This document shows positions 36,952 through 41,740 of a stretch of DNA of 51,839 bases, one piece after another; the stretch's first letter is position 1, and every line of letters begins with the position of its first letter. The stretch comes from Halobacteriales archaeon SW_5_70_135 (lineage in GTDB: Archaea; Halobacteriota; Halobacteria; Halobacteriales; SW-7-71-33). Made by a program: the position numbers and the translations under genes. The DNA is taken from contig PXSK01000001.1 of assembly GCA_003022865.1 (NCBI GenBank), forward strand, positions 1-51,839, given 5' to 3'. The notes under the pieces are model-generated. The model was given only the letters and a program-made list of their open reading frames with translations, was not told the DNA's origin and ran no database searches.

Positions 36952-37258
36952 GCCCTTCGGTCACCCCGTACACCCGTCGTGGTTCGTGTGAGGACGGACG
37001 CGAGGGGTCGCTGGACGGCTACAGACGACCCGACGGTAGCCGATATTTTCACTGAGGACGACTGCGCTTTCGCTGCGGAACGAGTAGCATTGCAGTCCTA
37101 CTCTCCTCGGTTCCCTTTAGTCGTCCCTGCGGAGAGAGCCTCCAGCCCGCGGGTGCGTCCCCAAGACGACCGCCTCAGCAGGGACAGTTTTATGCCAGAA
37201 AGTTGTATACCGTGACACTTAGGAGCACGTCGCAGGGTGCTACCCAAGGGAGTAAACC
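36952..37258. other. Intergenic region at the left edge of the accessory island
   Basis: 307 bp without a gene. Base composition starts to shift to less GC-rich here (for example GCCGATATTTTCACTGAGGA near 37040). No tRNA or attachment-like repeat was found. Confidence 0.4.
37187..37194 (+). promoter_or_regulatory. TATA box of the beta-roll protein gene
   Basis: GTTTTATG predicts transcription from about 37215, with a leader of about 45 bases before the ATG at 37259. Confidence 0.5.
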
Positions 37259-39085
37259 ATGACCGACGAAGACAAATTCACGACCGAGACGGATTCGACC
37301 GACGTATCGACCACTAATAACACAACTGGCGGAGCGGTCCACACCGCGATCAGCGCGGCTCTGGCTCGGCTGGGCCGCGTGCTGGCCCACTCGACCACCA
37401 CGGCCGACCAGCAGTCAGGGCCGGTGCTGATGGCCGACGGCGGCCAGAGCGACGCCAAGGTGATCGGTCACAACACCGACAATTCCGGCCAGACCGTCGG
37501 CGTCTGGGGCGAGGTCGACTCCACCGACGGCTGTGGGTTGGCCACCCCCGACGACGCCCGCATCGACGGCACACTCCTCACCAACGCCAGCGACTTCGTT
37601 GTCCAGACTGGCACCACCACCACCGAGGACGCACAGAACATCGTCGCCGGCCACGCCTCCAACAGCGTCACCGACAGCGCGGTCGGAGCCACCATCGCCG
37701 GCGGCGGGTTCGACGACGGCGAGTTCGACTTCGCCAACGTGGTCCACGACAACTACGGCACCGTCGGCGGCGGCGCCAACAATCAGGCTGGCAGTAACGA
37801 CAACGACCCCAGGACCGCTACATCTGCGACCGTCGGTGGGGGCTTCGAGAACACCGCCAGCGGCCCTGCTGCGACCGTCGGTGGGGGCGACAGTAACATC
37901 GCCAGCGCCAGGTATGCGACCGTCGGTGGAGGCAGCGGGAACAACGCCAGCGACATCTTTGCGACCGTCGGTGGGGGCCGCGGGAACAACGCCAGCGACG
38001 AGTATGCGACCGTCGGTGGGGGCATCGAGAACACCGCCAGCGCCAGATATGTGACCGTCGGTGGGGGCAACGACAACACCGCCAGCGCCAGGTATGCGAC
38101 CGTCGGTGGGGGCCAAAGCAACACCGCCAGCGACTTCAGGGCGACCGTCGGTGGGGGCCGCGGGAACAACGCCAGCGGCGGGAACGCGACCGTCGGTGGG
38201 GGCCGCGAAAACACCGCTAGCGCGCCCCAGGCGACCGTCGGTGGGGGCAACGGAAACGAGGCCAGCGGCAACTTGGCGACCGTCGGTGGGGGCGGCGGCA
38301 ACACCGCCAGCGGCAACTTGGCGACCGTCGGTGGGGGCGAAGAAAACACCGCCGGTGCCGCCTTTGCGACCGTCCCGGGCGGGCGGCGTGGCGCTGCGGA
38401 AAATCGCGAATCCTTCGTCTGGAACGACGGGACACAGTATCACCCGATCCCGAACAGTGACAACGATGGACTGTCCTCGGACACGGCGGTCAACAGCGAA
38501 CCCGTCACGGGGTCAGAGACGTTCAGCGTCGGCGCCACCGGCGGCGTCCGATTCATCACCGGGGGCGGCGTCACGTACATCTCCGGGGGCTCGACCGGCT
38601 GGAACACCACCTCGACGCGGACCGCCAAGACCAATATCGACCCGGTCGACCCCGAGCGAGCACTCGCAGGTGTCGACTCGATGGACGTGGCAACGTGGGA
38701 GTACGACGACGACGGCGACGGTGAGGCGGCGGGGACGACCCACATCGGGCCGATGGCCGAGGACTTCCACGACGCCTTTGACGTCGGTGACAGCGACGAA
38801 CACATCAACTCTGTGAATGCCCGCGGAGTGCTGTTCGCCGCCGTCCAGGGACTCTCGGAGGAACTCGACGGCAAAGAGGCACAACTCGACGACCAACGAG
38901 CCCGACTCGACGACCAGCGAGCACACATTGAGGAGTTGGAGGCGGACGCCGAGCGTAAAGACGACCGAATCGACAGCCAGCGAGCGCAACTCGACGACCA
39001 GCGAGCGCACATCGAGGAGTTGGAGTCGCGGCTGGAACGGCTCGAAGCCCACCTCGACACCGACGCCCAGCCAGCCGACGACTGA
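37259..39085 (+). CDS. Tail-fibre/adhesin-like beta-roll repeat protein with C-terminal S74-type chaperone domain
   Basis: 608 residues. A Thr/Asp-rich start and a hydrophilic N-domain (VIGHNTDNSGQTVGVWGEVD) lead to twelve perfect-length fifteen-residue repeats of pattern ATVGGGxxNTASxxx (residues 190-369), like the YadA head left-handed beta-roll. A joining domain follows. Then comes a segment like the S74 intramolecular chaperone of phage tail spikes and endosialidases: TSTRTAKTNIDPVDPERALA, WEYDDDGDG, HIGPMAEDFHDAF and SVNARGVLFAAVQGL. Ser452 and Lys457 keep the S-x4-K spacing used for self-cleavage. A coiled coil with two QLDDQRAHIEELE units ends it. No signal peptide is visible. Likely a trimeric fibre; the role (cell surface, virus-derived or adhesin) is not shown. 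Confidence 0.82.
   Translation: MTDEDKFTTETDSTDVSTTNNTTGGAVHTAISAALARLGRVLAHSTTTADQQSGPVLMADGGQSDAKVIGHNTDNSGQTVGVWGEVDSTDGCGLATPDDARIDGTLLTNASDFVVQTGTTTTEDAQNIVAGHASNSVTDSAVGATIAGGGFDDGEFDFANVVHDNYGTVGGGANNQAGSNDNDPRTATSATVGGGFENTASGPAATVGGGDSNIASARYATVGGGSGNNASDIFATVGGGRGNNASDEYATVGGGIENTASARYVTVGGGNDNTASARYATVGGGQSNTASDFRATVGGGRGNNASGGNATVGGGRENTASAPQATVGGGNGNEASGNLATVGGGGGNTASGNLATVGGGEENTAGAAFATVPGGRRGAAENRESFVWNDGTQYHPIPNSDNDGLSSDTAVNSEPVTGSETFSVGATGGVRFITGGGVTYISGGSTGWNTTSTRTAKTNIDPVDPERALAGVDSMDVATWEYDDDGDGEAAGTTHIGPMAEDFHDAFDVGDSDEHINSVNARGVLFAAVQGLSEELDGKEAQLDDQRARLDDQRAHIEELEADAERKDDRIDSQRAQLDDQRAHIEELESRLERLEAHLDTDAQPADD
37826..38365 (+). repeat. 45-bp minisatellite, twelve tandem units
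   Basis: Twelve in-frame 45-bp units share an almost invariant 18-base core, GCGACCGTCGGTGGGGGC, with variable filler. Such DNA can gain or lose whole units by recombination without breaking the frame, changing fibre length in 15-residue steps. Confidence 0.9.
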
Positions 39086-40425: not shown

Positions 40426-40755
40426 ATGCCGGAGGAGACGGACCGAACAGCCGTCCGGACGTACGTGCCGGCGTACCAGAAGGACGAGTGGGCCAGAGCG
40501 GCCGAGGCGATGGACATGTCCCGGAGCGAGTTCGTGCGGACGATGGTAGAGGAGGACGTCACCCCAGGGGTCGAGCCCCTGAAGACGCGGATCCTCAACG
40601 CTCTCGAGGACGGCCCGCTCTCGTGGGAAGCGATCGTCGCCGAGATCACAGAGGACGTCGAACGACGAGCCGAGAACTGCTTGCAGGAGCTGCAGGCGGC
40701 GGGCCGGCTGCGCCACAGCGGCCGAGAGGGAGGGTACGTGTTGACCGATGAGTGA
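40426..40755 (+). CDS. DUF5805-like small DNA-binding protein
   Basis: 109 residues from the ATG at 40426. The N-terminal half has a ribbon-helix-helix pattern (AVRTYVPAYQKDEWARAAEA, MDMSRSEFVRTMVEED). The C-terminal half has a winged-helix pattern (ILNALEDGPLSWEAIVAEIT, CLQELQAAGRLRHSGREGGY). This two-part layout matches haloarchaeal DUF5805 proteins, which are repeatedly encoded just before a tyrosine recombinase. Here the two genes overlap by eight bases, so they are cotranscribed and translationally coupled. It probably assists or regulates the recombinase; not demonstrated. Confidence 0.75.
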   Translation: MPEETDRTAVRTYVPAYQKDEWARAAEAMDMSRSEFVRTMVEEDVTPGVEPLKTRILNALEDGPLSWEAIVAEITEDVERRAENCLQELQAAGRLRHSGREGGYVLTDE

Positions 40756-41740
40756 GACGAGTGAAGCTACTCGGGAGCCGGTGTCGTACTTCATTGAGGA
40801 GATGGAGTACCACGGCAAGAGCGAGCGGACGCTGGCGGCGTACGAGCGAACGCTGCGCCGCTTCGAGCGGTTCCTGGAATCGGAGCGGTGTCCGTCTCCG
40901 GGGGTCGACACCGGTCGGGCCGGCCGACGGGAGTGTATGGCCTGGGTCCACGCCCTCCGTGACGACCTGGCGGCGTCGTCGGTGGCGACGTACGCCTCCT
41001 ATCTGCATCGCTTCTACGACTACATGGTGCGCGTGGACGCCTTCGAGGAGAACCCGATGGCGCTCGTCCGGGAGGAGATGGACGAAACTGTCGAGGCGGA
41101 CCCGACACGTCGAGAGGTGACGATCCCGGACATGCGCGAGCTCGTCGCCGGCGTCGGCCACCCGCTGGACCGCGCGCTGGTAGTCACACTGCTGAAAACC
41201 GGCGTCAGAGTCGGCGAGCTCTGCAATCTCGACCTCCGTGACCTGAACCTCTCCGTCGTGAACTCCTTCGGCGTCGACCCGCGTCCGGCCGTCGAGGAGC
41301 GACCGCAGTCCCTGTACGTGAACGGAGCGATAGACCGCGGAGCGGTCGTCAACGACGAGGAGCGCACCGCCGCCAACAAGCGACGCCGCTCGACCGTCGT
41401 TCCGGTCGACGAGGAACTCGAGACGACGCTGACCCGGTGGCTGGCGGTGCGTCCGGACCCGCGGTCCTCGGCGGAGCCGCTCTTCTGCTCGACGCGGGAG
41501 TGGGGACGACGCGTCACCCCGGCGATGGTCCGCCGGACCGTCCGCGAACACGCCCGCGAGCGGGGCTGGTACCGCGAGGGCGCCGGCAGCGACGAGAACG
41601 TCACCCCACACTACTTCCGGCACTTCTTCACGACGCACCTGCGGGACCGCACCGGTGACCGAGGCGTCGTCAAGTATCTCCGCGGCGACGTGGCGAGCGA
41701 CATCATCGAAGAGAGTGCTCGTTCGCCGCCGGACAGATAA
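40748..41740 (+). CDS. Tyrosine recombinase (XerC/D-like), C-terminally truncated
   Basis: 330 residues. The N-terminal SAM-like core-binding domain (about 15-105; YHGKSERTLAAYERTLRRFE) is complete. Catalytic Arg is in LLKTGVRVGELCNLDL, Lys probably in NKRRRSTVVPV, and His/Arg in TPHYFRHFFTTHL. After KYLRGDVASDIIEE, where relatives continue to the nucleophilic Tyr, the sequence changes to SARSPPDR and stops. No tyrosine follows, so the protein should not be able to cut DNA. The stop is in AT-richer sequence unlike the gene, suggesting that the 3' end was replaced. Integrase of a former element, now probably inactive. Confidence 0.78.
   Translation: MSETSEATREPVSYFIEEMEYHGKSERTLAAYERTLRRFERFLESERCPSPGVDTGRAGRRECMAWVHALRDDLAASSVATYASYLHRFYDYMVRVDAFEENPMALVREEMDETVEADPTRREVTIPDMRELVAGVGHPLDRALVVTLLKTGVRVGELCNLDLRDLNLSVVNSFGVDPRPAVEERPQSLYVNGAIDRGAVVNDEERTAANKRRRSTVVPVDEELETTLTRWLAVRPDPRSSAEPLFCSTREWGRRVTPAMVRRTVREHARERGWYREGAGSDENVTPHYFRHFFTTHLRDRTGDRGVVKYLRGDVASDIIEESARSPPDR

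Follow-up and report, generated by a model that had tools for sequence, protein, structure and literature searches.

A probable S74-matured cellular fibre encoded on the chromosome of a Halobacteriales archaeon

The stretch of DNA analysed here (the window) comprises positions 1 to 51,839 of contig PXSK01000001.1 (forward strand; GenBank assembly GCA_003022865.1) from Halobacteriales archaeon SW_5_70_135, and the gene in question is an open reading frame (ORF) at 37259–39085 that, like all features described below, lies on the + strand and encodes a protein of 608 amino acids. This protein is probably a chromosomally encoded, cellular trimeric adhesin or fibre of the haloarchaeon that is matured by S74 self-cleavage, analogous to the MAT fibres of Bdellovibrio. 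The reading draws on the architecture of the protein, a conserved dyad, the fold match of its S74 domain, paralogy and phylogeny. It predicts a trimer that cleaves itself and reaches the cell surface, where a role in adhesion is suggested by analogy with Bdellovibrio and UspA1. A cell-surface adhesin released by an unknown route was one of three possibilities raised in an earlier, first-pass annotation of this DNA and is the sole one of them to survive, with surface location predicted for a copy that carries no signal.

Architecture of the fibre protein

The S74 intramolecular chaperone/autoprotease domain occupies aa 452–532 (38612–38854) and was detected by Pfam Peptidase_S74 (aa 452–507, E-value 2.4e-8, 34.6 bits against a curated cut-off of 22) as well as by Foldseek, for which the top two structures retrieved with the modelled domain were the MyRF ICA (7DC3; probability 1.00) and the endosialidase chaperone (3GW6). 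A PDB sequence profile search using the S74 alignment returned coiled coils only. In an alignment of 60 S74 proteins Lys457 (38627–38629), the predicted general base, is invariant and Ser452 (38612–38614), the predicted nucleophile, is at least 90% conserved; cleavage is expected between Thr451 and Ser452. The serine-to-lysine spacing of 5 is also found in endoNF (S911/K916) and in MyRF (S587/K592), where both residues are essential for cleavage (PMC8326128), and from this spacing Ser452 appears to be the equivalent of MyRF S587 and endoNF S911. Following the S74 fold is a C-terminal coiled coil (aa 521–602; 38819–39064), a predicted trimerization helix with a model confidence (pLDDT) of ∼95–98 along most of its length; for the C-terminal model overall the mean pLDDT is 80, with S74 and coil mostly above 85. 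The predicted released fragment, S452–D608, is 157 residues long. The first-pass annotation had thus correctly recognized both the S74 domain with its dyad at the right spacing and the coiled coil. Its description of a complete trimeric-fibre design is backed by family, alignment and fold evidence as regards the shaft, S74 and coiled-coil arrangement, the trimer itself being predicted.

Upstream of the S74 domain are twelve tandem 15-residue copies of the motif ATVGGGxxNxAS, starting at aa 190, 205 and so on to 355, and a degenerate thirteenth copy (ATVPGG) at aa 370. The twelve copies were counted directly and agree with Tandem Repeats Finder, which reported a 45-bp period and 12.2 copies (37825–38374), so that the numbers given in the first-pass annotation are right; the periodicity is far beyond chance. 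The repeats form a predicted beta-solenoid shaft (aa 190–384; 37826–38410), modelled with a strand periodicity of 15 residues and a pLDDT mostly above 90. They align in register with the UspA1 head (PDB 3PR7; phmmer E-value 1.3e-23), whereas the Pfam YadA_head model gave no match to the protein, and the unit is the 15-residue one of UspA1 rather than the 14-residue one of YadA. Between the shaft and the cleavage site runs a neck, SFVWNDG...GVRFITGGGVTYISGGSTGW (aa 385–451; 38411–38611), which is conserved in the closest relatives.

The ORF is real, as indicated by an in-frame TAA two codons 5′ of the ATG, which also establishes the N-terminus, and by closely similar paralogues in the same genome (81–86% amino-acid identity across the head). 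Similarity between the paralogous loci begins in the presumed promoter and 5′ leader (37165–37258), in which the sequence TTTTATG is found ∼85 bp ahead of the ATG. The acidic N-terminus (aa 1–62; 37259–37444), with a low-confidence helix at aa 26–43, carries neither a twin-arginine translocation (Tat) nor a Sec signal. As the first-pass annotation had noted, no signal peptide is visible: the first 90 residues contain no RR or KR and no strong hydrophobic stretch, and a search for a Tat leader hidden upstream in another frame found none. Twin-arginine leaders are absent from this copy and its paralogues, although many haloarchaeal relatives have one. Residues 63–181 (37445–37801) constitute a head, here termed type b (VIGHNTDNSGQTVGVWGEVDSTDGCGLATPDDARIDG...), that recurs in three further haloarchaeal genomes, in relatives likewise without a signal.

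Paralogues, relatives and interchangeable heads

Three paralogues are present in the genome of origin (G000), namely the window copy (C1), one on C18 and one divided between C26 and C39, which share an exact 55-bp overlap at their ends and so probably hold parts of one gene. DNA similarity among them extends from ∼95 bp before the ATG to ∼45 bp past the stop codon, beyond which the neighbours are unrelated; the copies are thus scattered over three unrelated chromosomal sites, with no viral neighbours recognized. The ratio of nonsynonymous to synonymous substitution (dN/dS) between copies is 0.29–0.64, and their motif counts of 15, 10 and 9 indicate that shaft length varies.

Within the class, 392 genomes were sampled, and 22 of them contained S74 proteins. 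A single-sequence scan of genome contigs gave no relatives, whereas a query made from the alignment did, and a profile scan of GTDB genomes returned matches in haloarchaea, Chloroflexota, Verrucomicrobiota, Planctomycetota, Pseudomonadota and others. Of the 34 haloarchaeal rows in a 112-row S74 tree, 33 form one clade (support 99/99) within bacterial cellular rows, viral rows lying outside; the remaining haloarchaeal row (L029 12792) has a very long branch. The repeats are carried by 43 of 63 bacterial, 14 of 17 haloarchaeal and none of 15 viral S74 proteins retrieved, and an N-terminal hydrophobic segment is present in 37 of the 55 bacterial relatives whose ORF has a 5′ end. The ancestry of the fibre probably lies in a family of secreted bacterial fibres, a direction that is likely rather than proven, since the tree was midpoint-rooted and its sample drawn by similarity to the query. 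In 13 of the 63 bacterial relatives, mostly Chloroflexota (L113, L122, L132, L143, L148, L152, L165, L166, L168, L172, L177, L183, and L184), the C-terminus bears a transmembrane-like anchor past the S74 coiled coil, so that S74 cleavage would sever the fibre from its anchor in these bacteria. Most plasmid homologues in PLSDB are labelled 'tail fiber domain-containing protein.' In one haloarchaeal genome (G077; L093:8278-12305) a TnpA/TnpB pair resembling IS200/IS605 separates the shaft of a Tat-type fibre gene from its S74 domain.

Among haloarchaeal relatives the same cassette is joined to at least four kinds of N-terminus, assigned by eye: a Tat leader, type b, type c ('NHDYNVP..DWHxPLNENFE...FLATDTGxVYxGDGS') and a carboxypeptidase-regulatory-like prefix. 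The haloarchaeal S74 tree requires ten changes among the four head types and eight between Tat and non-Tat, of which well-supported branches force at least four changes of Tat label, and type b and Tat are mixed within the protein's own S74 subclade. Type b occurs in the genome of origin, a Halovenus metagenome-assembled genome (L107), G184 (several genes) and Halorubrum sp. Hd13 (G293), and is always signal-less, indicating that the lack of a signal is a conserved trait and not a gene-call error; judging from the Tat signals of other relatives, fibres of this S74 family probably leave the cell in other species. A type-c fibre is encoded on plasmid NZ_CP101160 of Natronosalvus amylolyticus. 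Two G184 genes (L088:16044-18503 and L089:7345-9225) combine a type-b head and the same repeats with another C-terminal domain in place of S74, which suggests that C-terminal chaperones are swappable, and a third (L088:3973-5745) has a type-b head fused to an unrelated 590-aa protein and lies among glycosyltransferase- and sulfatase-like genes.

A lone gp19-like (tail-tube, PF06841) gene adjoins an S74 fibre gene, mostly with a type-c head, in six haloarchaeal genomes (L034:2691-5322; L099:7278-8953; L033:527-2501; near G269:C12:435212, G027:C34:9003 and G016:C99:42377), and in three of these loci the next gene encodes a protein that has a Tat leader and glycine repeats of the YGEGGFG kind. 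In G013 the gp19-like/S74 pair and a contractile injection system (CIS) cluster are on different contigs. Such a pair could be an undescribed non-contractile appendage. A broader and rather doubtful proposal is that haloarchaea place one S74-matured shaft cassette on interchangeable heads (Tat; signal-less type b; signal-less type c with the lone gp19-like and the Tat-exported glycine-rich protein), the signal-less forms using an undescribed export route or a non-contractile appendage.

Proposed maturation and competing explanations

By analogy with endoNF, MyRF and Bd3182, three chains would join via the C-terminal coiled coil and S74 domain, and this module would nucleate the trimer and template folding of the repeat shaft. 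Once the trimer was correct, Ser452/Lys457 would cut at Thr451–Ser452, so that each chain would lose ∼157 residues and a mature rod would remain; its N-terminal head may attach it, and its shaft or neck may bind a surface or another cell. The type-b head would here have replaced the Tat leader of other haloarchaeal cassettes.

Several observations weigh against this cellular, self-cleaving fibre. The window copy has no signal peptide, and its surface location is therefore a prediction. The Foldseek E-values for the S74 model are weak (best 4.5e-3), and Foldseek of the N-terminal and shaft model against PDB found no convincing match (best E-value 0.8, probability 0.04), so that the beta-roll class of what the first-pass annotation called YadA-type repeats rests on sequence similarity to the UspA1 head. 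The genome is 63% complete. The C18 paralogue (L024:7848-9536) shifts frame near aa 541, inside the coiled coil, by sequencing error or decay, and one copy may thus be decaying. That the whole family is decaying, its leader lost and without present function, is nevertheless highly improbable given the dN/dS values, the intact frame of the window copy and the conservation of the type-b head in other genomes. A cytoplasmic protein, in which the S74/coiled-coil trimer acts inside the cell and never leaves it, would agree with the absence of an export signal from every type-b protein seen, but relatives with the same cassette carry Tat leaders or bacterial signal-like N-termini, and this explanation is unlikely.

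The first-pass annotation also raised a domesticated viral fibre and a contractile-injection tail fibre, and proposed a search for the same gene beside viral or injection-system loci; this was run and gave no link for the window fibre type. An origin as a haloviral tail fibre, domesticated or left as a remnant, is favoured by the S74 and tail-spike annotation and by an integrase-like gene 1.7 kb downstream, where a DUF5805 protein is followed by a tyrosine-recombinase-like gene (40748–41740; the pair at 40426–41740 in the window). The latter gene appears to end before the segment expected to hold the catalytic tyrosine, and GC content at third codon positions drops past 40426–41740. The S74 tree, however, groups the protein with bacterial cellular fibres and leaves all 15 retrieved viral S74 proteins, none with repeats, outside; phage records gave four weak matches, none of them a halovirus; the type-b head had one weak partial match among viral contigs; and the paralogues occupy unrelated sites. 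No virus structural genes were recognized among the selected neighbours that were profile-searched, as the first-pass annotation had stated. A viral origin was accordingly rejected from the tree and the phage and viral-contig searches, and is very improbable, being largely refuted. A CIS (phage-tail-like) fibre assembled in the cytoplasm and leaving the cell as part of the particle would explain the lack of a signal, and some haloarchaea have CIS genes, including the nearest relative (G001), while a branch of this S74 family has the lone gp19-like gene as its neighbour. Against it, gp19 tail-tube and Baseplate_J genes were found neither in the genome of origin, at its 63% completeness, nor in G293, which is 100% complete and has a type-b fibre. 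Furthermore, the complete genome G184 has its CIS genes at 1.61–1.62 Mb and its fibre genes far off at 1.22, 2.20–2.23, and 3.17 Mb, and G001 has CIS genes yet no S74. Linkage to a CIS was rejected on the evidence of G293 and G184, and a CIS fibre is quite improbable. Taken together, the tree, the phage and viral-contig searches and the gp19/Baseplate_J results make both readings unlikely for the window fibre.

Relation to known systems

The shaft-plus-S74 design is already known: bacterial examples are common and carry annotations, and Bdellovibrio offers an experimental precedent for S74 fibres of the cellular kind. The more original lead lies in the gp19-linked branch together with the interchangeable heads. 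Searches of the open-access literature found no account of archaeal S74 fibres, the nearest mention there being of a trimeric-autotransporter-like protein in nanohaloarchaea (PMC10266531). The cellular fibre proposed here would extend to archaeal cell biology an S74 self-cleaving strategy already described in phages, in MyRF and, not long ago, in Bdellovibrio. It also offers a case, open to testing, in which a gene likely acquired from bacteria went on to exchange its export head more than once. If the signal-less form reaches the surface, it would indicate an unrecognized archaeal export or assembly route.

Tail fibres of extracellular contractile injection systems are likewise signal-less, but neither the window gene nor the complete type-b genomes show genomic linkage to such a system. 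Haloarchaea have no outer membrane, and in contrast to the UspA1/YadA-type (type Vc) autotransporters the window protein has S74 and a coiled coil instead of an outer-membrane beta-barrel anchor, and no Sec signal. By sequence, its 15-residue GGG..N.A repeats align in register with the head of that group represented by 3PR7. EndoNF (3GW6) and the MyRF ICA (7DC3), the top two fold matches, share the Ser-x4-Lys dyad of its S74 domain but mature a different cargo, a phage enzyme and a transcription factor, respectively. The 'tail fiber domain-containing proteins' of Chloroflexota, Verrucomicrobiota, Planctomycetota and haloarchaea have the same repeat shaft, neck, S74 S/K dyad and coiled coil; the bacterial ones mostly begin with a signal-like segment and in 13 of 63 cases end in a membrane anchor, both of which the window protein lacks. 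The Bdellovibrio MAT superfamily is characterized by a signal peptide, which is missing here, and by a conserved beta-rich domain of ∼130 aa at the N-terminus. In the MAT S74 subgroup, Bd3182 is cleaved at S782, and MAT members are displayed on the predator cell surface (PMC10769870). Like these proteins, the window protein appears to be a cellular rather than a viral fibre with a self-cleaving S74 end, to which a type-b head and repeat shaft are joined instead.
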